Assembly: GCA_937928575.1 (NCBI GenBank)
Contig: CALFWW010000118.1
Span: 1-64,000 of the forward strand
From: an uncultured Saprospiraceae bacterium
GTDB taxonomy: Bacteria; Bacteroidota; Bacteroidia; Chitinophagales; Saprospiraceae
DNA length: 64,000 bases
Direction: 5' to 3'
Under the pieces are notes generated by a model. The model saw only the letters and a program-made list of their open reading frames with translations. It searched no databases and was not told the DNA's origin. The position numbers and the translations under genes are program-made. Shown here piece after piece: positions 24,373 to 37,394 of the stretch. Each line of letters begins with the position of its first letter. Positions within the stretch are counted from its first letter, which is position 1.

Positions 24373-24482
24373 CACACCAATTGACGACTTATGATGATAA
24401 GTCCAGTCAAAAAAGTAGCAAAACAAAGTCTTAGACTTTAAAAATATATCGCGGAGTGGAGCAGTTGGTAGCTCGTCGGGCT

Positions 24483-25154
24483 CAGCATATTCAAAAGCTG
24501 CTAAGATTATTGACTTATGGAAAATACAAAGCTCAAAGGGGATATTGCCGAACAGCAATTACTCTAAAAGCACTAAAACATGGATGGGAAGTTTTAAAAC
24601 CAATTGGTGACAGACTTCCTTATGATATTGTTTTTGATGTCAATGGTTTTTTGATTAAAATACAAGTAAAAAGTGCTTGGCTTGATGCCAAGAAAAATAA
24701 TTACGTTGTTGATAATCGGAAAACTAAAACAAATCGTCGTAATGTAAAACATTATACTTACGAATCTTCGGATTTCGATTTTGCTATTCTTTACATTGAA
24801 GATTTAGATGTCAGTTACATTATGCCATGTGATGTTTTCCTCAGTTACGGTTCCGAAATACACTTAGTCGTAACCGACAAGCGTCAACGAAAACCCAAGT
24901 CATGGGAATATAGAGATGCTTGGAATTTAATCTTGCAAAGGGCTGCTTTGATGGAAACATCGGAGTGAATTCTGTCAAATTCGGGGAAGCCTTTAGTATG
25001 GTAATCCCGAGCCAAGTTCTGAAATTAAATCAGAAAAGGTGTAGAGACTTGACGGCAGACATCTAACCTCATTTTTGATGAGTATGATGAAGAGAAAGTC
25101 CAGACCACAAATTACACCAAATGGGTGTAAGCAGCGAAAGCTGTAGTTGGTACG
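24483..25154 (+). ncRNA. Group I self-splicing intron (672 bases) inside tRNA-fMet
   Basis: The 5' splice site follows U33 and the intron ends in G before C34, as group I chemistry demands. Core elements, in order, after the ORF: P3 5' strand TCTGTC (24971-24976); P element AAATTCGGGGAAGCC (24977-24991); Q element AATCCCGAGCCAAG (25003-25016), with P4 formed by TCGGG/CCCGA; P6a hairpin TTCTGA/TCAGAA (25017-25035); R element around GTAGAGACTTGACGG (25038-25060), with P7 GACT and P3' GGCAGA (25054-25059); P8 hairpin (25060-25089); S element AGAGAAAGTCCAGACC, with P7' AGTC (25097-25100); P9 hairpin TTACACC/GGTGTAA (25112-25130); and a CAGC-GAAA-GCTG tetraloop hairpin (25132-25143). P1 and its internal guide could not be fixed by eye. 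The endonuclease gene fills the part 5' of P3. Confidence 0.92.
24517..24968 (+). CDS. Intron-encoded homing endonuclease, I-Ssp6803I-like PD-(D/E)XK type, with a one-base frameshift
   Basis: The ATG at 24517 gives MENTKLKGDIAE in one frame. The rest of the protein (TAITLKALKHGWEVLKPIGD to RRAALMETSE and the stop at 24968) is one frame over. Adding one A to GAACA at about 24550-24554 (GAA ACA) restores a continuous protein of 150 residues. Active-site residues then line up as in the PDDEXK_5/I-Ssp6803I family: Glu12 in KGDIAE, Asp37 in PYDIVFDV, and the unusual Gln50-Val-Lys52 in IKIQVKSAW. C-terminal KRQRKPKSWEYRDAWNLI is also typical. The enzyme would cut intronless tRNA(fMet) genes to spread the intron. 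An alternative open frame starting in the tRNA exon exists but lacks the catalytic Glu. The shift may be real decay or a base-call error in an A run. Confidence 0.82.
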
Positions 25155-25174
25155 CATAACCCGAAGGTCGTAGG

Positions 25175-25197
25175 TTCAAGTCCTGCCTCCGCTACTA
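25175..25197 (+). repeat. Possible attachment repeat, left copy (3' end of tRNA-fMet)
   Basis: The 23 bases TTCAAGTCC...CGCTACTA from the T loop to just past the tRNA end are repeated exactly at 37372-37394 in the same orientation. Confidence 0.7.
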
Positions 25198-25204
25198 AGC
25201 AAGC

Positions 25205-25240
25205 AACCCTTATCAATGTGTAATTGGTAAGGGTTTTGTT
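25205..25240 (+). terminator. Rho-independent terminator of tRNA-fMet
   Basis: AACCCTTATCAA (25205-25216) pairs with TTGGTAAGGGTT (25224-25235) with one wobble, followed by TTGTTGTTT. Confidence 0.75.
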
Positions 25241-25621
25241 GTTTCAGATAGCGACCTATCTCCATTCTCCACCGCCAAGCAGAATTTACTACAGTTTCTT
25301 TTCATTTTACCCACGATATATTGTTGTTACCAAAGTTAATCAGAGCTACATTTTGAATACCATTTTACCTTATTCGATAAATGAATTGGAATTGTCTTAT
25401 TTTAAATGCAAATGAATAAAAAAATCATTCTTTTTTATTAATTTTATTATGATCCACCTGTAGGAGCTACTTCCCAAATTTCCCTTTTTGATTAAGTGCG
25501 ACAATTGATTTAAAATTTGTTTTTTAATGACGTAACAATTTAACAATTGTTAAGACTTATAATAAAGTAGAATAGCTAACTGGTTCTGGTCACACCTTTC
25601 AGAATCATAAATACACTCATA
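25241..25621. other. Non-coding leader region of the LytTR regulator
   Basis: I see no convincing gene here. The notable piece is a perfect inverted repeat, TAACAATT-TAAC-AATTGTTA at 25533-25552, about 70 bases before the regulator's start codon. It has the size of a dimer binding site and could be an operator, possibly for the LytTR protein itself. The stretch is otherwise AT-rich without clear -7 consensus. Confidence 0.4.
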
Positions 25622-26368
25622 ATGACAAAGGCCATCATCATCGAAGATGAGATGGATGCAAAGCAATTGCTCAGCCGCATCCTTTCAGACTATTGCCCAA
25701 CCGTAAAATTAATTGGTACTGCCTCAAATCTCAACAAAGGTGAACAACTAATTAATGAATTAGAACCCGATTTAGTTTTTATGGACATTCAATTAGGAGA
25801 CCAGACTGGTTTTCAATTGATGGATCGATTGGAGAAAAAATCTTTCAAATTAATCATAACCACTGCTTATGAGGAATTTGCTTTAAAAGCATTTAAGTAT
25901 GAGGCAATTGATTACATTTTGAAACCGTATAGTCCAAAATCAATCATTGCCGCAATTGGAAGGGTGACAAAAGCTTATCACGATTCTGCCGTCTATCGTC
26001 GATTGGATAGTTTACTTAACAATAAAAAGACATCCAAAAAAATCAGTCTGCCAACCTCAGAAGGAATACTTTTAATCAATATCAATGACATTCTTCATAT
26101 TGAAGCGGACCGTTCTTACAGCAACGTGTATCTGGAAAACAATACAAAACAAGTTATTAGCAAGTCATTAAAAGATCTCCAGGAGCTATTGCCAAAAAGT
26201 GATTTTTTCCGAATCCACACTTCCTATTTGATCAATTTAAATAAAATTGAACGATACAGTAATGAAGATGGTGGTGCTGTCATCATGTCTGATAAAAAAC
26301 GAGTCCCAATTGCGAGAAGAAGGAAAAATGAATTTATGGAATTAATTAAAAGTGGGACTGGTTTTTAA
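25622..26368 (+). CDS. LytTR-type response regulator (LytR/AlgR family)
   Basis: A 248-residue cytosolic regulator. The receiver domain (~3-120) has acidic residues Glu8/Asp9, the phospho-acceptor Asp55 in VFMDIQLGD, and the conserved Lys in YILKPYS. The LytTR DNA-binding domain (~140-245) has ILHIEADRSYSNVYLEN and FFRIHTSYLINLNKI, then KKRVPIARRRKNEF, the usual ending. It should be phosphorylated by a His_kinase-type sensor; the kinase gene lies downstream at 26593, separated by a MITE-like element. The pair is the classic Bacteroidota LytTR/His_kinase system. Confidence 0.95.
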   Translation: MTKAIIIEDEMDAKQLLSRILSDYCPTVKLIGTASNLNKGEQLINELEPDLVFMDIQLGDQTGFQLMDRLEKKSFKLIITTAYEEFALKAFKYEAIDYILKPYSPKSIIAAIGRVTKAYHDSAVYRRLDSLLNNKKTSKKISLPTSEGILLININDILHIEADRSYSNVYLENNTKQVISKSLKDLQELLPKSDFFRIHTSYLINLNKIERYSNEDGGAVIMSDKKRVPIARRRKNEFMELIKSGTGF

Positions 26369-26528
26369 TACAAATTGTAAACTATAATCGCGGATATTAT
26401 ATAGAAGAAAAAAATTTTGAGATCAAGGCGGAAAACGTAAACATAGCCTTAGCTACGGTGAGGCTTTCTAACGAAGATATCGGAAATTTTTTCTTATTGA
26501 ATACCGCTATTATAGATTAAAATTTGTA
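26369..26528 (+). repeat. MITE-like element, copy B, with ~50-base terminal inverted repeats
   Basis: The ends are imperfect inverted repeats: left TACAAATTGTAAACTATAAT and GCGGATATTATATAGAAG, right (complement) TACAAATTTTAATCTATAAT and GCGGTATTCAATAAG, each then running into an A-rich AAAAAATTT and a GATAT/GAGAT word. The ~60-base centre holds AACGTAAACATAGCCTTAG, shared with 1-163. There is no transposase. It starts right after the regulator's stop codon and lies between it and the kinase gene. Confidence 0.8.
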
Positions 26529-26592
26529 TAAGACCTAACAACGAATATACAAAATTTAACATACTCAACAAGCAGCTTACAACGCCGTCCTA

Positions 26593-29550
26593 ATGCGTTA
26601 CTTTCTTTTCAGTCTTTTTTTTATTTTGACTATTAATACAACAATTTTTAGTCAGGCTCCTCAATTTAATCAAGTGAATTTCACAATTGAAGATGGACTG
26701 CCAAGTAACGAATGTCATGATATTCTTCAAGATAGTACTGGCTATATTTGGATTGCCACCGACCGCGGACTTGTTCGATATGATGGCTATGAATTTAAAA
26801 CCTATGGGGTTCCTGAAGGATTGACGGATATATCTTGTTTGGATATTGAGTTTGATCAGGAACAAAATATTTGGATCAATACTTTAAGTGGTCGGATTTT
26901 TATTTATGATCAGAAAATGGATCGGATTCATTTGTATGAACATCAAGCAATCATTGATTCTTTTTTGGTTTGTAGTCGACTTAAAGATTTGGCAGTCTCA
27001 AAGGACAATAAATTGGCACTTGTAATGCTGAGTATTGGATTTCTAATAATCGATAATAAGTCTGGAGATTTTATCTTGAAAAGAGCGGAAGACAAGGAAG
27101 GTTCAATTGAATTTACACTTACAATAGATGAAAGGCAATTAATTTCAAATGATACCAGAGGTCAGCATTTGGAATATCTTGAATGTTTGGAAAAGGTCTA
27201 TTCCCATTCGATTAACAATTGGTACTGTCAGTATTACATTGATCACAATAGTAAACGCTATCAAGGAATCTTTAGCGATGTTTCTAATTCACTTAGCTCT
27301 GACAGACTAGCATTTAAAATTGCACCTGACATAATGTATATCTATACAAGTGGCACGAGCTATTTTTTCTCAGAAGATCAATTGGTTTCTTATAGAGCGG
27401 ATAATCAATATTATTTAGATCTTTTATCATATTCAGAAGGTAGTTTTTTTGCAGGGATGCATAACCGAGGTGGGTTAAAATATTATCTAACCTTAAAAGA
27501 TTTTCAATTGGATCATGCTTCGTCAATTATTGAAAATGTTTCTATTAGCAGAATTTTAAAAGATAATAATGGTGATCTATGGTGTACAAGTTTGGAAAAA
27601 GGAATCTATTATTTAAAGAATGAAGAGATAACGACTAATTCATTTCCAGAATTATCAACATCTAATATCAAAAATATAGAGACAGGAGAAAATGAACTTT
27701 ATTGTCTGGAAGAAAAGCAAAAATTATACAAGATTTCAAATAATGAGATTGTTCTTGTATTGAATGAAAAACAAAAGGAACTCAAGTCAATAAAATATTC
27801 TTATTCATATAATGGTATAATTGTTTCCTCTAATTCTACTGAACTTTTATCTGGACCTAATCATGATTCTTATGAACTTAAATTGATAGCTTATGATAAT
27901 GAGATCAGTTTATATTCTAATTCATTCTTTGAATTTGATCCTGACGAAATTTTCTTTTCTACTTCAAGCGCTCTGATTGCAAAAACACACCTTGATTCTG
28001 CACAAGTTTATCATTCTTATGACGATCAAAACATGCGTATTCGTGTAATAGCTGTTGAAAAAGTGGCGAAAGATGACTTTTTGCTTGGTACTACTAAAGG
28101 CTTGAAAAAATATGGTAACAAAACAATTACAGATATCGAAGATTATCCCACAGAGCTACAACTAAGAATCAATTCCATCAAAAAAATAAATGAATGGTAT
28201 GCTTTCGGTACTCAAGGAAATGGATTGGTGTTTTGGGATTTGCAGGATTCGGTATTCACTATTCAGCAGCAAGATGGTCTAATTTCTAACAATATAGAGT
28301 CAATTTTTAAAAGTGATGAAGAGCAATTATATTTATCAACTAAATCTGGCCTATCTAAAGTATGGTTTGATGAGCAACAACAAGTCCGTGTTAAAAATTA
28401 CACCACCTTCCACGGTCTTCCCTCTAATGAAGTCAATGATGTGGATCAATTAGGAGATACGATTTATATAGCAACAGGCAAAGGTATTGCGACATTAGTA
28501 GAAGATCCGGCTCCTTCAAGTTTGCATCAACCTTTTTTTACAAACATTCAAATCAATGAGACGATTTATCAAGCTGACAGCATTCCAAGTTCACTTCATT
28601 ATAAAGAAAATAATATTCGAATTGCATTCAAAACAATTGACTTCAAAATGCAAGGAGCAATTCCCTATCGATATCTACTCAACGATAATGATTGGCAAAA
28701 CACCTCTGCGACTGAAATAAATTATCCATCGCTTCCTCCTGGCAACTATACTTTCCGATTGCAGTCCAAAAACATTGATGATGCATGGTCTACACCAATT
28801 ACCTTGGATTTTGAAATACGACTTCCTTGGTGGCGTACCTCTTGGTTTTGGGTATTGTGTGGGTTATTAATGTTTTTCTGTGCAGGCTATTATTCAAAGT
28901 TTCGAACCGATCAGTTAAAAAAAGAAGTCGCCATCGAAAATGAAATGAGAGAACTCGAACGTGCTGCACTCCAAGCGCAAATGAATCCACACTTTATCTT
29001 TAATTGTCTAAATTCTATTCAAAACTTCATCATGGCCAATGACAAAGAAAATGCCATGGAATATCTCGTCAAATTTGCAAAGCTCATTCGTCAATCTCTT
29101 AATTTTTCCACCACTTCCAAAATTCCCTTGGATCAGGAAATTTCCATGTTATCCAATTACATCGATTTGGAACAACTACGTTTCAAAAATAAATTCAATT
29201 ACCACATTGTCGTTTCTAGTGAACTCACGCCGGAAGAAATTAAAATCCCAACACTACTCATACAACCTTTTGTAGAAAATGCAATCATCCACGGTCTCAA
29301 AGACATTCAAAAAGATGGTTTGATCGAAGTGTTGTTTATTAAAAATGATGAAACCAGTATCCGTGCAATTATACGTGATAATGGTAATGGTCTGGCAAAG
29401 TCCAATAAGTTGAATGGCCATAAGTCTCTTGGGATGTCTATTACGAGTAAGCGAATTGCACATAATAATAATGTGATAGATGGCTCCTATTCCATTACTC
29501 CAGAGCATACCTCATCTGGGACTGAGATTGATATTGTTATTCAATTGTAG
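26593..29550 (+). CDS. Sensor histidine kinase with beta-propeller, Y_Y_Y and His_kinase domains
   Basis: A 985-residue inner-membrane sensor. A signal peptide or anchor covers ~1-21. Residues ~25-640 form periplasmic propeller repeats of the reg_prop type (DGLPSNECHDILQDSTGYIW, then YTTFHGLPSNEVNDVDQLGD). A Y_Y_Y Ig-like domain at ~690-745 ends PPGNYTFRLQSKNIDDAWS. One helix (WFWVLCGLLMFFCAGYY) crosses the membrane at ~755-772. The kinase part has ALQAQMNPHFIFNCLNSIQN, with the phospho-His in NPHFIFN (PF06580), and an ATPase with IQPFVENAIIHGL and DNGNGL. It probably senses a periplasmic ligand, often glycan-related in such proteins, and signals to the LytTR regulator upstream. Confidence 0.93.
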   Translation: MRYFLFSLFFILTINTTIFSQAPQFNQVNFTIEDGLPSNECHDILQDSTGYIWIATDRGLVRYDGYEFKTYGVPEGLTDISCLDIEFDQEQNIWINTLSGRIFIYDQKMDRIHLYEHQAIIDSFLVCSRLKDLAVSKDNKLALVMLSIGFLIIDNKSGDFILKRAEDKEGSIEFTLTIDERQLISNDTRGQHLEYLECLEKVYSHSINNWYCQYYIDHNSKRYQGIFSDVSNSLSSDRLAFKIAPDIMYIYTSGTSYFFSEDQLVSYRADNQYYLDLLSYSEGSFFAGMHNRGGLKYYLTLKDFQLDHASSIIENVSISRILKDNNGDLWCTSLEKGIYYLKNEEITTNSFPELSTSNIKNIETGENELYCLEEKQKLYKISNNEIVLVLNEKQKELKSIKYSYSYNGIIVSSNSTELLSGPNHDSYELKLIAYDNEISLYSNSFFEFDPDEIFFSTSSALIAKTHLDSAQVYHSYDDQNMRIRVIAVEKVAKDDFLLGTTKGLKKYGNKTITDIEDYPTELQLRINSIKKINEWYAFGTQGNGLVFWDLQDSVFTIQQQDGLISNNIESIFKSDEEQLYLSTKSGLSKVWFDEQQQVRVKNYTTFHGLPSNEVNDVDQLGDTIYIATGKGIATLVEDPAPSSLHQPFFTNIQINETIYQADSIPSSLHYKENNIRIAFKTIDFKMQGAIPYRYLLNDNDWQNTSATEINYPSLPPGNYTFRLQSKNIDDAWSTPITLDFEIRLPWWRTSWFWVLCGLLMFFCAGYYSKFRTDQLKKEVAIENEMRELERAALQAQMNPHFIFNCLNSIQNFIMANDKENAMEYLVKFAKLIRQSLNFSTTSKIPLDQEISMLSNYIDLEQLRFKNKFNYHIVVSSELTPEEIKIPTLLIQPFVENAIIHGLKDIQKDGLIEVLFIKNDETSIRAIIRDNGNGLAKSNKLNGHKSLGMSITSKRIAHNNNVIDGSYSITPEHTSSGTEIDIVIQL

Positions 29551-29808
29551 TGCTTTCCTACCATCTTTATTTACTTCAATACTCCATTACCAACAGGAAG
29601 ATTACACCTACCATTTTGTGGGAATACCTGACCGCTGGGAAGTTAGGTCATTCTTAGACCTAGACAACTAAGTACATTTGATTATGAGAATATGAGCTAA
29701 CCAATTTATGGGATTCAATCGTAAGGAAGGGATAAACAATATTGTGAAATTTCATTCTCAAATCTAAATGGAATTGTTGACCAACTTCCTATATAAAAAA
29801 GTAGAATT

Positions 29809-31641
29809 ATGAAAAAACAATTAGCAGCCGACGCACTCAATTTTAAATTCTTTCTGCCTTTCATTTTTTGTGGTTTACTATTTCAAACTTCTTTCTCGCA
29901 AACCGAAGTTGTTGAGCAAAACACGATCAATCAAGCGCCATCTAATTTTCAATTGAGACTTAATAGTGGTTACGATTTTATACCCTCCTACACGAGTGAG
30001 TTCACTTATTATGATGTCAAAGGAGGTCCAAAATTCGGACTAGGTGCAGATTATTATTTTGGGAAGATTATTGGTGTCGGTTTAGATGCTGATTTTTTAA
30101 TCAATAAACCTATCTCTCTTCTTGATGGTGATTATTATGTTAGTGCTAACAATTCATTTGTAGCTGCAGATTTACAAACAGATGTTCAGAATATTAATCG
30201 AATATTTGTTGGATTAGGGCCATCCTTTCGTATTCCGATGGACAAGTTTCAATTATCCTTTGCGGCAAGAGTCGGGATGACAAAAATCAAAGGTGGTGAA
30301 CTAGCATCTTTTACTGAATCAAATGGATCTAAAGATTATCATCTACTTTTCTCTGGATTCGATGAAACGGTATTAAGTTATAAAGGAAGTGTGGATTTAA
30401 GCTTTTCAATTGCTAAAAATCTAAATTTGGGATTGGGTGTTTATTATCTACGCCATTCAAATCTACATCCAGATCAATCATTCAGTCTTGTAAATGTCAC
30501 TGATCCCACAATGATTTATGGTCACTCATCAATTACACAGGAAAGAGATGGGCAAATCAAAGCGTTAGGCCAGGAAAATGCCTATATGGTAAAGGCAAAT
30601 GTCGAGGAAATTCCTTGTGCTACTTATAGTTCTATCGGAGCAACTATTGGATTATTATACAAATTCGGTAAAAAAACCAAAAAGGAAAAACCTATCGAAC
30701 CAATAGAAACTTGTAAAGATTGTAAGTGTCCAAATGATGGGCACAAGGTCGTCGTAACTGTAAGAGATGAACAATCCAACAAAGTAATTCCAGATGCTGA
30801 CGTTGCTATTAGAGATAGTAAAAACAACATCATTGCGACCGGAAGGACCAACACATTTGGTGTCGTAGATTTTGGAGAAATACCACACGGTAATTACACG
30901 ATTGTTGGAAATGTTTATGGTATGGAAACTCCGATAACCAGAATGACTGAAGAAGAATTTTTGCCAAACGCAATCTTACAAAAAGTAGTCATCTACAATG
31001 ATCTTCGCTTTATATTAAAAGGATCCGTAGTTAATAAATCAACAGGATTATCAGAATCAAATGTCGTTGTTAGCTTAACGAATACCAGTACTGGAGCAGT
31101 CGTCCAGAACACGTCAAATGAGAAAGGACAATTCAACTTCCGTCTTGATAAAAATTCAAGTTATGAATTAGTGGGTATTAAAGAAAATAGATTGTCAGAT
31201 GTGGGCAGGACATCAACAATTGGGCTAAATAGAAGTGCAACGTTATTTGTCAATTTGATTTTGGGTGTTGAAGACTTTGAATGTAACAGAGGAATGGTAC
31301 TTGATATAAAATACGAATTTGATAAAGACAATTTGCTGTCCGAATCCATGTTTGATCTCGACAAACTGGTTAGATATCTTCAAGCTCACAAACGATCTAA
31401 AGTAGAACTATCTTCTCATACAGATAGTCGAGGTAGCAATTCCTATAACATGGATCTTTCTCAACGACGAGCTCAATCAGCTGTAAACTATATTATGTCA
31501 AAAGGAATCAATCGATCAAGAATCACAGCGCTCGGCTATGGAGAAACTAAATTGAAAAATCATTGTGCAGATGGTATTGATTGTTCAGAAGATGAACATC
31601 GTACAAATCGTAGAACGGAAGCAAAATTAATTTGTAACTAA
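29809..31641 (+). CDS. OmpA-family outer-membrane protein with carboxypeptidase-regulatory-like domains
   Basis: A 610-residue protein. The signal peptide ends SFSQ (about residue 31). Residues ~40-285 look like a small outer-membrane barrel (YDFIPSYTSEFTYYDVKGG, then GLGADYYFGKIIGVGLD). Two beta-sandwich carboxypeptidase regulatory-like domains follow (~305-390 and ~398-485). The C-terminal OmpA peptidoglycan-binding domain (~500-610) has YEFDKDNLLSESMFDLDKL, SHTDSRGSNSYNMDLSQRRA and ALGYGETKL. It ties the outer membrane to the wall. There is a Cys cluster at CKDCKCP just after the barrel. It is 15 bases before the next lipoprotein gene. Confidence 0.9.
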   Translation: MKKQLAADALNFKFFLPFIFCGLLFQTSFSQTEVVEQNTINQAPSNFQLRLNSGYDFIPSYTSEFTYYDVKGGPKFGLGADYYFGKIIGVGLDADFLINKPISLLDGDYYVSANNSFVAADLQTDVQNINRIFVGLGPSFRIPMDKFQLSFAARVGMTKIKGGELASFTESNGSKDYHLLFSGFDETVLSYKGSVDLSFSIAKNLNLGLGVYYLRHSNLHPDQSFSLVNVTDPTMIYGHSSITQERDGQIKALGQENAYMVKANVEEIPCATYSSIGATIGLLYKFGKKTKKEKPIEPIETCKDCKCPNDGHKVVVTVRDEQSNKVIPDADVAIRDSKNNIIATGRTNTFGVVDFGEIPHGNYTIVGNVYGMETPITRMTEEEFLPNAILQKVVIYNDLRFILKGSVVNKSTGLSESNVVVSLTNTSTGAVVQNTSNEKGQFNFRLDKNSSYELVGIKENRLSDVGRTSTIGLNRSATLFVNLILGVEDFECNRGMVLDIKYEFDKDNLLSESMFDLDKLVRYLQAHKRSKVELSSHTDSRGSNSYNMDLSQRRAQSAVNYIMSKGINRSRITALGYGETKLKNHCADGIDCSEDEHRTNRRTEAKLICN

Positions 31642-31655
31642 TAAAATTAAAAAAA

Positions 31656-32963
31656 ATGAAATTCATAAAGTTGATAACATTTGCACTGGTAATTTTACTT
31701 ACTCAATCCTGTGAAAAATGTGATAAAGTTTTAGTTTCTCCATGCGATGATGTTATTCCTAATTCGGAATATTGTGGTTGGGCGGTTGCAACCTGTTATG
31801 GCGAGGACGGAGCTGCGGATGTGGGTGTAATTTACAATACATCTCAAAATAGTTCAGCGCCTATAGGAGATGACTGGGGGGCAACAATCCAAACCATACA
31901 CCCAACGAATTGGAACTATAGAGATATTGGGCAAATATTTGGAATCGCAATCGATGATGATGAAAATATCTATTTAGGTTCATCTGACATTTATTTTTAT
32001 GACGGCTTCGGTATTCCAGCTTCTTCAAATGTAAATCGTCCTTTTCCATGTGGTCAAATTTTCAAGTGCGCTCCTCCAACTTGGGATGCAATTCCTTTTG
32101 TTACTCTTCCATCGGGATGTGAGTCATATTTAGGGGTTGGAAATATTGCATATGACAAATCCAATAATCAGCTATTTGCAAGCAATTTAGACGATGGAAA
32201 AATTTATAGAATTGATATTGCAAGTGCTTCAATTTTAGAATCTTTTGATCCATGGCAACCTGATTCTGGGGCTGCTGGCATCGATAAAGAACAAGAGCTC
32301 GTATGGGGATTGGCAGTTTCTAAAGAAAGTAATCCAGTGAAAATATACTTTACAAAACCAAATGTATCTCCTACGACTACTGTAGAATTGTATTCTGTTT
32401 CTCTCTCAAATGGATCTTTCGATGGGAGTGAATCTTTAGAAAACTTGAATGTAGACCTTCAAACATCCAATCAAATAACTAAAGTAACGGACATTTCGAT
32501 ATCAGATGATGGTACTAAAATGTTGGTTGCACAAAGAGGTGGACCGCATTCAAGCACAGTCATTAAATTAGAATCTGATGGTAATTCTTGGAATGTAGAT
32601 CAAACGAAATATTACATCGGAGGATTCTCAGGGGAAAATGTTGCTGGTGGCGTAGATTTTGGTTACAAAAGTTCAAATGAAAGCCAAAGTGAAATATGTA
32701 ATGAACACTTTTGGATTTCGTCTAACTATATGTTTGCAAGAAATTCAACATTAGATCGCCTGTATGGAATTACCATGACATCGTTGGCTGGTAATAATTC
32801 AGTGGATTCAAATCCCCCATCAGCAAATCAGGATACAGACCTTTTTATTGATTTTGATGGATTGGACGGAACTGGACCAAAAGGGCATCTTGGGGATGTT
32901 GAAATTATTGATTGTTCTGAATGCGGTGATCCTTGTAAGTTAAATGATTTAATCGTCAATTAA
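31656..32963 (+). CDS. Putative lipoprotein with a beta-propeller-like body
   Basis: A 435-residue protein with a lipobox-like LTQSC (Cys about 19). The body has repeated blade-like segments (IFGIAIDDDENIYLGSS, VGNIAYDKSNNQLFASN, ITKVTDISISDDGTKMLVAQ) that resemble NHL/SMP-30 or T9SS-associated SdrD-type propellers. It is Cys-rich at both ends. No catalytic motif was recognised. Tight spacing to the OmpA-family gene (15 bases) suggests one transcript and a shared surface role. Confidence 0.65.
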   Translation: MKFIKLITFALVILLTQSCEKCDKVLVSPCDDVIPNSEYCGWAVATCYGEDGAADVGVIYNTSQNSSAPIGDDWGATIQTIHPTNWNYRDIGQIFGIAIDDDENIYLGSSDIYFYDGFGIPASSNVNRPFPCGQIFKCAPPTWDAIPFVTLPSGCESYLGVGNIAYDKSNNQLFASNLDDGKIYRIDIASASILESFDPWQPDSGAAGIDKEQELVWGLAVSKESNPVKIYFTKPNVSPTTTVELYSVSLSNGSFDGSESLENLNVDLQTSNQITKVTDISISDDGTKMLVAQRGGPHSSTVIKLESDGNSWNVDQTKYYIGGFSGENVAGGVDFGYKSSNESQSEICNEHFWISSNYMFARNSTLDRLYGITMTSLAGNNSVDSNPPSANQDTDLFIDFDGLDGTGPKGHLGDVEIIDCSECGDPCKLNDLIVN

Positions 32964-33014
32964 AACATGTTTGAAAAAAGAAAAATCTATTAACAAAATT
33001 CAATTGATATTATT

Positions 33015-33677
33015 ATGAAAAACCTGTTAAGTTTTATTTTAATCGCAACAATATGTTTGCTTATATCATCATGTAGCTCTACAAAGTCAAAAACATTTGA
33101 CGATGACACATCAATGCATCAGAGGATTGCAGTTCTCCCTTTTCAATCAAAATTAAAATTGACTACAAAGCAAAAAGAGTCTGTCTCAGATTACAAAGTC
33201 AAAGAAGTTGAACTTGCCCAAGGAATTGATGTGCAAAATGCCGTTGAGTCCTATCTCGCTGGCAAAAACTTAAGAGTTAAAGTGCAGTCAGGTAATATGA
33301 CCAATTCGAAATTGAGAAATGCCGGATATGATCTCAGTACTGTCCACGAAAAAGATTATACCGCATTGTGCAAGCTGTTAGGTGTTGATGCAATCGTGGC
33401 TGGATATATTGAAACAGAAAAGCCGATGGATGAAAAGTTAGCTATGGGCCTAAATGTGGCCAAAAAAGTAGAAGGTGCATTGTTAGGAACTGCTTTTGGA
33501 GCAGGCGTGAAAACAAGCACCAATAGAGGTACATGCAGAGTTAGCATATTTGAAGGAAAAAATGGGGATAGACTTTGGTCTTATTCAGAAGAAATTGAAA
33601 TGGGAGTTGGAAGTACTACCCAGGATATTGTCAACGCCTTAATGCGAAAAGGAGCAAGGAAATTTCCTTATAAATAA
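33015..33677 (+). CDS. Putative lipoprotein, CsgG/TolB-N-like fold
   Basis: A 220-residue protein with a lipobox LISSCSS (Cys about 20). IAVLPFQSKLKLTTK followed by VESYLAGKNLRVKVQ, LLGVDAIVAGYIETE and a strand of the type GTCRVSIFEGKNGDRLWSYSE is the pattern of CsgG/TolB-N-like lipoproteins that assemble at the outer membrane. The Gly/Ala-rich stretch GALLGTAFGAGV in the middle could be a membrane-touching hairpin. By-eye assignment only. Confidence 0.6.
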   Translation: MKNLLSFILIATICLLISSCSSTKSKTFDDDTSMHQRIAVLPFQSKLKLTTKQKESVSDYKVKEVELAQGIDVQNAVESYLAGKNLRVKVQSGNMTNSKLRNAGYDLSTVHEKDYTALCKLLGVDAIVAGYIETEKPMDEKLAMGLNVAKKVEGALLGTAFGAGVKTSTNRGTCRVSIFEGKNGDRLWSYSEEIEMGVGSTTQDIVNALMRKGARKFPYK

Positions 33678-33750
33678 TCTAAAAGAAGTACAAGTGCCTT
33701 AAATGACCTGCGATAAAATCACCGCCAAAACCATTTAAAGTAAGCTGAAT

Positions 33751-34029
33751 ATGAAAGCAATATTGTGGGACGGACAGAAACAAATTAAAGGCGAACTTAT
33801 TATCGATAAAAAGCGGTTAAAATTTAAATTATCTGATTTTTCTGAAACTGATTTGGATTTTGATTTAGCTTATCAAGAAATCAAGGAAGTCCAGTATTAC
33901 AAACTTTACAAAGTATCAAATGTGGGACTTGAAATTATTTCTGACAATGAAAAACGAAATGTATTCATTGTGGAACAACCTCGAGAAGTTAAAAAAGCTA
34001 TTGAGATCCGAATAGGATTGTATCATTAA
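33751..34029 (+). CDS. Small hypothetical protein (PH/GRAM-like)
   Basis: A 92-residue protein without signal peptide. MKAILWDGQKQIKGELIIDK begins a beta-rich chain, and EIKEVQYYKLYKVSNVGLEII resembles the central strands of bacterial PH/GRAM-like domains. It ends RIGLYH. Probably cytosolic. No family is firmly recognised. Confidence 0.5.
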   Translation: MKAILWDGQKQIKGELIIDKKRLKFKLSDFSETDLDFDLAYQEIKEVQYYKLYKVSNVGLEIISDNEKRNVFIVEQPREVKKAIEIRIGLYH

Positions 34030-34040
34030 ACCGTGTTAAA

Positions 34041-34139
34041 ATGGAATTATACAAACAGTATTTATCATCAATTATTGCATTGACAATCTTTTGCTATGGG
34101 AAAGCTGATGCTCTAAATGGTAGACCTACCTTGTATTGA
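34041..34139 (+). CDS. Possible 32-residue secreted microprotein or truncated gene start
   Basis: An ATG at 34041 opens 32 codons reading MELYKQYLSSIIALTIFCYG and ending NGRPTLY before TGA. The N-terminus has the shape of a signal peptide. The gap to the next gene (193 bases) is otherwise empty. It may be a real small peptide or the left-over start of a lost gene. Confidence 0.25.
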   Translation: MELYKQYLSSIIALTIFCYGKADALNGRPTLY

Positions 34140-34222
34140 TAGAATTCAAACATCAAATACACCTCATGATTGGCGACATGAAATTATCTATCAAAGTTTA
34201 AATATTTAAATAAAACAACAAA

Positions 34223-34672
34223 ATGAAAAATCAAAATTTTTTACTCTTATTCGTAATTATTTTAACAACACTTGCATTTTTTAGTTGCAAAAAGGAAGAA
34301 CCTAAAGAAGAACCTGAATTACAATGTGTTCCTAGTTGTGAGAATATTGATGGTACTGGTGACAATATCTGTATCGATGGAAATTGTGAATGCGAAACTA
34401 ATAACTGGACTTACATAGAGTGGACGGTAAAGTGCACAAATTGCTCTAATGTTGTAAGTGAATTGTTTTGTGATTTATATATTAATAACAATAAAATTAC
34501 GGATTTAACATTGGCAAGTAGTTCGTTTCAGAATGCGATATTCAAAAAGCTAATAAATTCCTCTGGCCAAGTGCCTTATAAAATTATTTCGGGTTCGGTC
34601 ACATTAGAAGAAGGCTTTTTTAATCTTACAAATTGCGAAAGGTTTTCAACAACTTCAAATATTCAAATTTAG
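34223..34672 (+). CDS. Small Cys-rich lipoprotein
   Basis: A 149-residue protein. The signal peptide ends FFSCKK (Cys about 22), followed by a charged linker KKEEPKEEPE. The middle, CVPSCENIDGTGDNICIDGN then CECETNNW, has a tight Cys spacing like a short EGF-like or metal-binding knot. The C-terminal half is beta-rich. No family recognised. It is preceded by a 193-base gap and followed at 80 bases by a longer Cys-rich lipoprotein that shares the EGF-like style. Confidence 0.6.
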   Translation: MKNQNFLLLFVIILTTLAFFSCKKEEPKEEPELQCVPSCENIDGTGDNICIDGNCECETNNWTYIEWTVKCTNCSNVVSELFCDLYINNNKITDLTLASSSFQNAIFKKLINSSGQVPYKIISGSVTLEEGFFNLTNCERFSTTSNIQI

Positions 34673-34751
34673 AGATCAATTCAGTATAAGTCCTTGAAGA
34701 GAATAAAAGGAAGAAAATTTCTATACAAAAACCATTACAAACAATCTTAAA

Positions 34752-35921
34752 ATGAAAAATTTAAAATTTATAATTATTCTTTTTTCCCTTTCTGTTTTTA
34801 TGATGACTGTATATTCATGCAGTAAAGATGATGATAACAGTCCTCCTCCAAATCCAGATAACAATACAACTTGCACTGATGGCATTCAAAATGGAAATGA
34901 GACAGGAGTTGATTGTGGAGGTGATTGCGAAGCTTGTGTTAGTTGTATAGACGGCATCCAAAATGGAAATGAAACTGGAATTGATTGTGGAGGCGATTGT
35001 CCGGATTGTCCACCAACAAAAGCAGAAGCAATTATTGGTATTTGGGAAGTTACGGAATTATCACTCAACGGAAATGATTACTTCAGCGAATTCGGTGTAA
35101 GGAAATTGTACTTCAATTTTAGAGCAGATATGTCGTATGAGAGTTTTATTATCAATAAAAATGGGGATTCAGATCTAAATCCTTCAACTTATCAACCTGG
35201 AGCCAATGCTGATATTGAAATCGCCAATTCCGCCGGTAGTGATTTTTATAACTGTGAGTTTTCAAATAATTACATGACGGTCACATTAACAGGAAACAAT
35301 GCTTTTGAGACTGTCGCATTGTTACAAAAAGTTACAGAAGATTTATGTGCTAATAATTCATGTGTGAATACTGTTGAATGTCTTTATGGTCACTGTATTT
35401 GTGCAACAGGTTTTATTGGTGAAGATTGTTCTGGTAAATTAGGACCAGCAGGAGGAATACAAATTTATGATCGAGGGGATAACACTGGACCATTCAGGTA
35501 TATTGAAGTTTCGAGAGTCCCATTTTCGGCTGCAAGTGTTGCATGTCCACAGGGTGGTTTCTTTGATATTTCAGGTCAGCTGGGATATGGTGCTGCAAAT
35601 TGTTTAGATATCCTTTTAACCTGTGGTGAACTAGCAAATGAAGCAGTAACTATCTCTGTAAATCATGAGCAAAATGGTTTTGATGATTGGCATTTGCCAT
35701 CTTCAGAGGAATTGCAATTGGCTATGCCATATGTCAATGAAATCTTTGGTTGTCCAGATAATGGAACAACTCTACTCACTTCAACTCAATCTAATAACAT
35801 TTCTCAATTCTATGCTTATACGAGAAATTGTTTTGATAATGCAGATGACAATAATTGGGGATGGACTACAGTAGAAATGGACCCAGGTGCAGAATTTGTA
35901 GTGGTTCGATATTATAATTGA
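34752..35921 (+). CDS. Lipoprotein with tandem Cys-repeat, EGF-like and DUF1566-like domains
   Basis: A 389-residue protein. The signal peptide ends VYSCSK (Cys about 23). Two near-identical repeats (CTDGIQNGNETGVDCGGDCE and CIDGIQNGNETGIDCGGDCP) are a common Bacteroidota Cys-rich repeat. The next ~110 residues look like a lipocalin-like beta domain (AIIGIWEVTELSLNGN...). An EGF-like segment (CVNTVECLYGHCICATGFIG) follows. The last ~160 residues resemble a DUF1566 domain (FDDWHLPSSEELQLAM and WGWTTVE). The DNA of the two Cys repeats is also nearly identical, so they arose recently. Confidence 0.7.
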   Translation: MKNLKFIIILFSLSVFMMTVYSCSKDDDNSPPPNPDNNTTCTDGIQNGNETGVDCGGDCEACVSCIDGIQNGNETGIDCGGDCPDCPPTKAEAIIGIWEVTELSLNGNDYFSEFGVRKLYFNFRADMSYESFIINKNGDSDLNPSTYQPGANADIEIANSAGSDFYNCEFSNNYMTVTLTGNNAFETVALLQKVTEDLCANNSCVNTVECLYGHCICATGFIGEDCSGKLGPAGGIQIYDRGDNTGPFRYIEVSRVPFSAASVACPQGGFFDISGQLGYGAANCLDILLTCGELANEAVTISVNHEQNGFDDWHLPSSEELQLAMPYVNEIFGCPDNGTTLLTSTQSNNISQFYAYTRNCFDNADDNNWGWTTVEMDPGAEFVVVRYYN

Positions 35922-35986
35922 TAATCCACCAAATTTTATTTTAAGCAAATAAAACGAATTAAGAGTCAAATTTAAGTTTAAGAAAT

Positions 35987-36634
35987 ATGTATACTTCAAA
36001 ATTAATACCCAACCTTTTCGCTATTATACTGCTTCTGGCATTTGCCTTTTCATGTGGCAAAGATAATGAGGATCCAACCCCAACTTATGTCAACCATGAA
36101 GTCGCATTCTTCATTGATCATCAAAGTGTGGTAATTGCACCTCCAGTGTATGAAACAGTAACATATCAAAGACTTTCAAAACCTGAACATAAAGATGGAG
36201 CTACCTTTGAAACTACGACAGAGCAGGTCTTAGTCAAAGAACAGAGTATGGAATATTCCATTTCTAGCGATCATGTTTTCAGCATTATTACCAACATGGA
36301 AAGTGGAGCTACTTCGGATGTCACTTGTAGATCATTTCTTGATGCTATGGATATTGAAGTGACAATTATTCCTGCTGAATATGCAACAGTGGAAAAAGAG
36401 ATAATTGTCCAAGATGGAACTGGTTCTATAATTCCAGCACAATATAGTAGCTATCAAATCGATATCGTAGATTCCGAGGCATCATACACAATTCAACCGA
36501 ACCCAAATCGTAATTCAGAGATTGTCACTTTCAGATTAGAATCAGGTATTTCGGTAAATGATCATATCCAAAGTGAATTAGCTATTCAATCAATTACGGG
36601 ATGTTTAAATGGTGATAGTTATTTGATTCAATAA
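35987..36634 (+). CDS. Putative lipoprotein with PxxYxxV repeat motif
   Basis: A 215-residue protein; the signal peptide ends FAFSCGK (Cys about 24). Three related segments occur: VIAPPVYETVTYQRLSK, IIPAEYATVEKEIIVQDG and IIPAQYSSYQIDIVD. Related PAxYxxV repeats occur in surface proteins of Bacteroidota. Function unknown. Same-strand neighbour of other lipoproteins. Confidence 0.55.
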   Translation: MYTSKLIPNLFAIILLLAFAFSCGKDNEDPTPTYVNHEVAFFIDHQSVVIAPPVYETVTYQRLSKPEHKDGATFETTTEQVLVKEQSMEYSISSDHVFSIITNMESGATSDVTCRSFLDAMDIEVTIIPAEYATVEKEIIVQDGTGSIIPAQYSSYQIDIVDSEASYTIQPNPNRNSEIVTFRLESGISVNDHIQSELAIQSITGCLNGDSYLIQ

Positions 36635-36693
36635 AATTACACTTCTTTTCCTGAAAGTATCGTTTAAAATTTAATAATAAAAAAATATCAATC

Positions 36694-37305
36694 ATGAAAA
36701 ATATTTTCTTTTTAATTGTAGCTGTTTCATTTTTGACAGCCTTCAAATCAAATTCAGAATCGAATCAAATTTTGTCGAATCCAACATTAGAATTACAACA
36801 AAATAAAGAATGTATTAATTATGAAAACTACGTTCGTAAATTTATTACCTATTTGATAAAAGCTCCATTGTCGACAGCTTCCAACGGTGGTATCATTGTA
36901 AAAACTACCCCGGATTTTTCGCATTCAGCTGTTCTTGACAAGTATTCAAGAAAACATCTAATACATTTTCAAGCTATTTCTGGTAAAAATAAATCTGCAA
37001 AAAGAGTGGCATTTACAAAAGAGGTTACTAGTAATAACTCAAAAGTTGAAGTTAAAATTAGTCCTTCAGATATTAAAGAATATAGGAAACGGGCTTTCCA
37101 AGTAAATCTAATAGTTCCAAATATTGATTATTCCAACGTAAGGCATGTTAAAGATATTTATCTAAATCCTTCAAATAATAAAAGGTATATGAAAGTTGTA
37201 ACATTTCAAGGAATAGAATCTATTCACGAAATAGTACTTAGTGAAGGTTCCGCAACTGGTCAAAACTTAGATTATATTGGGTGGAATTATAGATGTTTGG
37301 AGTAA
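36694..37305 (+). CDS. Hypothetical secreted protein
   Basis: A 203-residue protein with a signal-like N-terminus (MKNIFFLIVAVSFLTAFKSN). Lys-rich with beta-strand-like stretches and no recognised motif. It is the last gene before the tRNA-end repeat at 37372, and AT-rich codons are prominent. Confidence 0.5.
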   Translation: MKNIFFLIVAVSFLTAFKSNSESNQILSNPTLELQQNKECINYENYVRKFITYLIKAPLSTASNGGIIVKTTPDFSHSAVLDKYSRKHLIHFQAISGKNKSAKRVAFTKEVTSNNSKVEVKISPSDIKEYRKRAFQVNLIVPNIDYSNVRHVKDIYLNPSNNKRYMKVVTFQGIESIHEIVLSEGSATGQNLDYIGWNYRCLE

Positions 37306-37371
37306 CTAAAATCTTATTTAGGGAGTTAGAGTCATTCATTTGTGACCATAAAGTGTTGATTATCACAGCCT

Positions 37372-37394
37372 TTCAAGTCCTGCCTCCGCTACTA
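37372..37394 (+). repeat. Possible attachment repeat, right copy (tRNA-fMet 3' end fragment)
   Basis: An exact copy of 25175-25197 (TTCAAGTCC...CGCTACTA). No tRNA can be folded from the sequence upstream of it. It is directly followed by a terminator, as a tRNA end would be. Confidence 0.75.

Follow-up and report, generated by a model that had tools for sequence, protein, structure and literature searches.

The window, a 64,000-nucleotide stretch of DNA from an uncultured Saprospiraceae bacterium, contains at positions 24450 to 25194 an initiator tRNA gene in which a group I intron of 672 nt separates U33 from C34. Very probably it belongs to the tRNA-fMet intron lineage described from Synechocystis, in which the family endonuclease lies in the intron or just downstream; this copy is probably immobile but still spliceable.

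Split initiator tRNA gene, ribozyme core, and intron-encoded endonuclease

The 5' exon (24450 to 24482, forward strand) covers tRNA positions 1 to 33 and ends in U33, and the 3' exon (25155 to 25194, forward strand) runs from C34 to A73, CCA not being encoded; both were assigned from the sequence and by family comparison. Read from the window, the spliced exons give CGCGGAGTGGAGCAGTTGGTAGCTCGTCGGGCT|CATAACCCGAAGGTCGTAGGTTCAAGTCCTGCCTCCGCTA, and the joined 73 nt are 100% identical to intact tRNA-fMet genes in many genomes of the same family. They display the features of a bacterial initiator tRNA, namely, the C1xU72 mismatch, the A11:U24 pair, and a GGG:CCC anticodon stem; the identity to intact genes bears out the earlier note, which had rebuilt an initiator with the 1:72 mismatch and the three G-C pairs. 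ARAGORN detected no tRNA in the window because the anticodon loop is split by the intron. The insert can also be delimited from outside, since a relative of the same genus (G001:C111) has an intronless site at the same chromosomal locus, with 2 kb of upstream sequence 84% identical; the insertion between U33 and C34, its length of 672 nt, and its terminal G thus agree with what the same note had proposed. Two candidates were set aside: the apparent split gene of G142 is a contig gap with a run of N, and a second 3' exon at L155, considered as a duplication, is a separate tRNA-Met.

The intron (24483 to 25154, forward strand; first nucleotide C, last nucleotide G) matches the Rfam model RF00028 with 60 bits (gathering score, 50; E = 1.5e-13), the sole match in the 5.35-Mb genome. 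Its catalytic core, P2 to P8, occupies 24945 to 25125 of the forward strand, with P2 at 24945 to 24966, and was placed by RF00028, alignment and folding, and covariation. Over 43 homologous cores, 97% of cells are paired in P2, P3, P4-P6, P7, P8, and P9, with 383 compensatory cells versus 107 expected by shuffling; the covariation score is 0.50, compared with 0.19 for shuffled alignments and at most 0.11 when the register was slid. P3 (24971-24976 with 25054-25059) has changes on both sides in all six of its pairs. The pseudoknotted P7 (25046-25050 with 25096-25100) has one varying pair, found as T-A, G-C, or C-G, with 14 compensatory sequences and none broken among the 43. RNAalifold paired the guide sequence with a P7 strand, but this pairing had no covariation and the known P7 was used instead. 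The P9 region, with its GAAA loop and the 3' splice site (25125 to 25154, forward strand), was defined by folding and covariation; GAAA loops are present in both P2 and P9, and the window core folds with z = -4.0. A U before the 5' splice site and a G at the 3' end are found in all 75 delimited homologous introns and in the window. The suggestion of a group I intron, based on P3/P7 pairings and a GAAA loop and offered with an RF00028 search as its check, is therefore confirmed at the level of sequence by the model match and the covariation.

The internal guide sequence GGGCU, the 3' strand of P1 (24940 to 24944, forward strand), lies within the endonuclease frame, and its GGGC is kept in nearly all homologues. 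As read from the sequence, it is predicted to pair with the end of the exon and to place U33 opposite G (C24483-G24940, U33.G24941, C32-G24942, G31-C24943, and G30.U24944). In the first step of splicing, an external guanosine would attack after U33, held in the U.G wobble with the guide; in the second, the attack of U33 behind the terminal G would ligate the exons and yield a mature initiator tRNA.

The endonuclease gene is housed in the loop of P1 and at its 3' end runs over into the guide sequence and P2. Its likely start is the ATG at 24517, since the N terminus read from there, MENTKLKGDIAEQ, is that of the intact gene in G001. This frame (24517 to 24567, forward strand) ends at a TAA stop at 24565-24567, and the rest of the protein, from AITLKALK to METSE and the stop codon, is encoded in another frame (24555 to 24968, forward strand); compared with the intact same-genus gene, one base is missing near 24553-24558. 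A mechanically listed frame at 24456-24968 is an artifact that begins within the tRNA exon. The remainder matches the PD-(D/E)XK domain family PF11645 (143 bits; E = 7e-42; cutoff, 26.1) and the structure of I-Ssp6803I, 2OST (E = 2.7e-58), and the endonuclease type named in the earlier note therefore stands, although the frame is broken by 1 nt. The frameshift severs the conserved E12 of the first catalytic motif from D37, Q50, and K52 (G001 numbering), so no single frame carries all of these residues and the window copy is probably immobile. We take the catalytic roles of the four residues to be those of Zhao et al. 2007.

The 3' end of the tRNA gene also borders what looks like an inserted island of 12.2 kb (25175 to 37394). 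It is bounded by a 23-nt direct repeat, on the left the tRNA 3' end (25175 to 25197, forward strand) and on the right 37372 to 37394 of the same strand, after which the ancestral tRNA terminator follows (59 nt, 93% to the intronless relative). The island genes include a LytTR regulator, a histidine kinase, OmpA, and unknowns, with no recombinase visible among them.

Position of the endonuclease among relatives

The gene is split at the identical position in at least 20 of 150 genomes of the host family. The endonuclease is intact within the intron in G001, G120, G194, G181, and G149, and it is broken there in the window copy, in G076 (early stop), and in G011 (internal deletion). In G158, G083, G016, and G015 it lies outside, downstream of the tRNA, and the intron is 300 to 325 nt long; in G080 the downstream gene is truncated and the intron is 294 nt. 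Introns without an adjoining endonuclease are found in G007, G164, G021, G141, and G071, as well as in G170 and G169, where the contig ends are reached; G164, which appears to be Neolewinella agarilytica, has its endonuclease elsewhere, behind a displaced tRNA end. In G076 (L237, contig C146), a degenerate second copy of the last intron bases and the 3' exon, about 120 nt past the start of the 3' exon, is a local duplication. The family also has ORF-less group I introns in other tRNA genes, one in tRNA-Leu(UAA) of G001 (L060, 1627-1848, reverse strand) and one probably in tRNA-Arg(UCU) of G016 (L061, 1497-1709, reverse strand).

A wider survey covered 80 named endonuclease loci, with one genome per species. 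The gene lies inside the tRNA-fMet intron in 37 loci, downstream in another 37, and upstream in 1, while 5 were unplaced. Downstream endonucleases are free-standing, mostly within 250 nt of the tRNA, and sit beside an ORF-less intron; none of the 80 loci has an endonuclease beside an uninterrupted tRNA-fMet. Copies within the intron span more than 10 phyla, among them Chloroflexota, Nitrospirota, Thermodesulfobacteriota, Acidobacteriota, Elusimicrobiota, Armatimonadota, Methylomirabilota, Bacteroidota, and Cyanobacteriota, a list that binning errors may inflate, although the Desulfococcaceae locus L128 has its own CCA-encoding exons and neighbors. In two of the unplaced loci, L174 (2915-2932, Cytophagales) and L179 (2904-2919, Neolewinella agarilytica), the free-standing endonuclease follows a tRNA-fMet 3' end and terminator that have been displaced, and the vicinity lacks a whole tRNA; there, the insertion of islands at tRNA-fMet seems to have parted tRNA and endonuclease. 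The survey thus offers a natural series, with the endonuclease inside the intron, broken inside, deleted, or free-standing outside, and with the intron alone.

These architectures do not form single clades. On a tree with the variable tail trimmed, which has few columns, weak deep forks, and a root hanging on a long viral branch, the AU test rejected a single clade for the downstream form (p = 3.4e-5) and for the in-intron form (p = 0.0011), and the architecture changed at least seven times. The direction of one step, which can usually only be inferred, is revealed by the 3' ends of several free-standing Nostocales genes, which consist of 40 to 65 nt of the core of their own intron. In L160, 50 nt are colinear with guide-P2-P3-P4 of the intron beside it (score 40 versus 31 for the best of 300 shuffles), and the 3' ends of L162, L180, L187, and L197 are likewise colinear with their own cores (0 of 300 shuffles each); in other free-standing Nostocales copies the test was weaker or negative. 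The scar translates as tails like VRSPVQFQEAGF, near the VRTPVKFGEA tails of genes inside introns, and the VRSPVQFGEAGF-like tail of the free-standing Nostocales genes is translated ribozyme sequence from P3-P4. Judged by these ribozyme-derived tails, the endonuclease left its intron in Nostocales, opposite to the proposed textbook route, which argues that exit from introns is open to endonucleases, and not invasion alone. The same test was negative for the free-standing genes of Bacteroidota, and no scar was found outside Nostocales. An endonuclease-like stretch upstream of the guide in ORF-less introns was unusable for direction because it equally represents a P1 extension.

It is doubtful, though the best placed of the alternatives, that the free-standing endonuclease is ancestral and that it entered introns later, as in the collaborative-homing route proposed for phages. 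Some Bacteroidota free-standing copies do branch early in the full tree, which is rooted on the long viral branch, but the tails in Nostocales are explained only by exit from an intron and contradict this order for that group. Purifying selection acts on the free-standing genes (dN/dS mostly 0.05 to 0.19, with one pair at 0.33) and seems to keep them intact. Divergence among the endonucleases is correlated with divergence among the introns (Mantel r = 0.55 for the inside form and 0.88 downstream). Shared vertical ancestry can itself raise r; the downstream value is what joint travel or joint inheritance of the free-standing gene and the neighboring intron should produce. In our estimate the chances are about even that, in bacterial chromosomes, the endonuclease repeatedly exits its intron and settles downstream to form a two-part unit, and that back-up initiators persist mainly with resistant, altered arms. 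In such a unit the intron would supply immunity and the outside gene the homing; it would spread by co-conversion of flanking DNA.

Initiator supply, origin, and mobility of the window copy

The earlier note had reasoned that if the split gene were the only initiator gene, all translation would depend on splicing. This does not carry over to the window genome, which is only 93.6% complete and has a second, intronless initiator-like tRNA (G000:C152:4607-4679). The genome search proposed with that claim thus did return a candidate, though one with an altered anticodon arm that is not typical of an initiator: it has C1xU72 and A11:U24, but also a G31.U39 wobble, U32, U38, and an unusual loop, and a covariance model built from 16 initiators gives it 79.7 bits, where typical initiators reach about 100. 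Its contig belongs to the genus, as a 273-aa protein encoded on it is 80% identical to G001 and at most 42% to others. Given this tRNA, the split gene could be dispensable. Elsewhere in the same genome, eleven tRNA genes lie within 2 kb in a phage-like arrangement (C259:1-2000, L053).

That the split gene is a relic and the intronless tRNA performs all initiation nevertheless appears unlikely. The initiator features of the C152 tRNA, its genuine contig, and the broken endonuclease would fit such a relic; against it, the split gene has kept its core pairs and its two exons unbroken, the latter matching intact family genes exactly, and tRNAs of the C152 type, with G31.U39, U32, and U38, are rare among relatives. 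A spliceable resident is the reading we retain. No intact initiator was found in the split-gene relatives G007, G080, G141, G021, G076, G181, G194, and G120, which are 97 to 100% complete and whose best other tRNAs score at elongator level (at most 70 bits), and only elongator-level scores were likewise obtained for Cylindrospermum, Nostoc carneum, Calothrix brevissima, Spirosoma fluviale, S. oryzae, and Arcicella rosea. In all of these genomes, the initiator may come from the split gene alone; for the near-complete relatives, the entire translation would then rest on a ribozyme.

Intronless initiator-like tRNAs in intron-bearing genomes have anticodon arms that deviate from the canonical GGGCUCAUAACCC in the window genome, A. 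aurantiaca, two Spirosoma, and Neolewinella agarilytica. In these five cases, the altered arms could, hypothetically, confer resistance to the endonuclease. The exception is G001, possibly a mixed bin. Its contig C144 (L127) carries the intron with an intact endonuclease and C111 (L236) is intronless, the flanks being 82% identical to each other; the two loci reflect either a mixed bin or paralogues. An intact endonuclease together with an uncut tRNA-fMet fits poorly with our reading unless two strains or species are mixed.

The earlier note had also pointed to lateral transfer. Spread between phyla is supported by the tree, which mixes phyla, and by one of the nearest relatives of the window endonuclease, which lies in the tRNA-fMet of a desulfobacterium, within exons of that organism's own CCA type; a direct link to cyanobacteria is not supported. 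In the full tree, Desulfococcaceae HSG9 and the same-genus gene share a group with the window copy (bootstrap/SH-aLRT, 95/85); the trimmed tree places that copy, weakly supported, within the Saprospiraceae. In both trees, I-Ssp6803I is paired with Snowella and lies a long way from the window copy. A direct cyanobacterial donor would account for the tRNA, site, and enzyme family shared with Synechocystis and for the many relatives in cyanobacteria, but it is very improbable in view of this grouping and of the intron's presence in at least 20 of 150 family genomes and in more than 10 phyla. Plasmids yielded no relative, and phage records gave weak, partial matches only (26 to 39% identity). In the viral contig L207 (3004-3517), an endonuclease with 52% identity lies immediately upstream of a phage tRNA-Met in which GGCTCATAACC occurs, and the contig is a possible vehicle for spread.

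Extrapolating from I-Ssp6803I, the endonuclease encoded in the P1 loop would cleave tRNA-fMet genes that lack the intron, at the conserved anticodon region, after which the intron would be copied in by repair. The low dN/dS of the window remainder versus relatives (0.13 to 0.19) indicates that the break is recent; the endonuclease is probably dead, and the copy has probably lost self-driven mobility while remaining a spliceable resident. The frameshift lies outside any homopolymer, although it could be an assembly error. That ribosomal frameshifting still yields a full-length enzyme is scarcely credible, for although a recent break and low dN/dS would suit it, no in-phase slippery heptamer is seen by eye at the break and almost all other full-length family members have a single uninterrupted frame. 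A distant endonuclease relative (27%) lies elsewhere in the window genome (G000:C12:22651-22965, L045).

Comparison with known systems

The tRNA-fMet group I intron of Synechocystis PCC 6803 is 655 nt long and encodes the 150-aa I-Ssp6803I (PMC1995217). The window element has the same host tRNA and the same endonuclease family and size, and in the Snowella relative, the closest to I-Ssp6803I, the site is likewise U33|C34 and the gene lies within the intron, as in the window. The window copy differs in its phylum and branch, in its frameshifted endonuclease, and in the second initiator-like tRNA of its genome. By its sequence it belongs with the Synechocystis intron, and it would work in the same way; it falls short of that type solely in the integrity of the endonuclease.

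Another structural RNA gene, that of tmRNA, is also known to contain group I introns, across many phyla including Saprospiraceae, with LAGLIDADG endonucleases in about 4% of them (PMC11915505). They are comparable in their wide distribution but differ in gene, site, and endonuclease type. In the collaborative, or trans, homing of phages, the free-standing F-CphI, for example, acts with the psbA intron (PMC3984707, PMC6083498). The window's own gene, inside the intron, does not fit this arrangement; in its relatives G158, G083, G016, and G015, as read from their sequences, an ORF-less intron is accompanied by a free-standing endonuclease. Unlike the phage case, the setting is a bacterial chromosomal tRNA and the enzyme is of the PD-(D/E)XK family and homologous to copies within introns; in Nostocales it derives from the intron rather than heading into one. 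We found no literature on a free-standing endonuclease for a bacterial tRNA-fMet or from Bacteroidota in the sources searched, most subscription journals lying outside them. Relocation of the endonuclease would be what is new in the relatives. The window locus brings Saprospiraceae into the range of a classic cyanobacterial intron that sits in the one tRNA required for every protein, and by the survey this range widens to more than 10 phyla.
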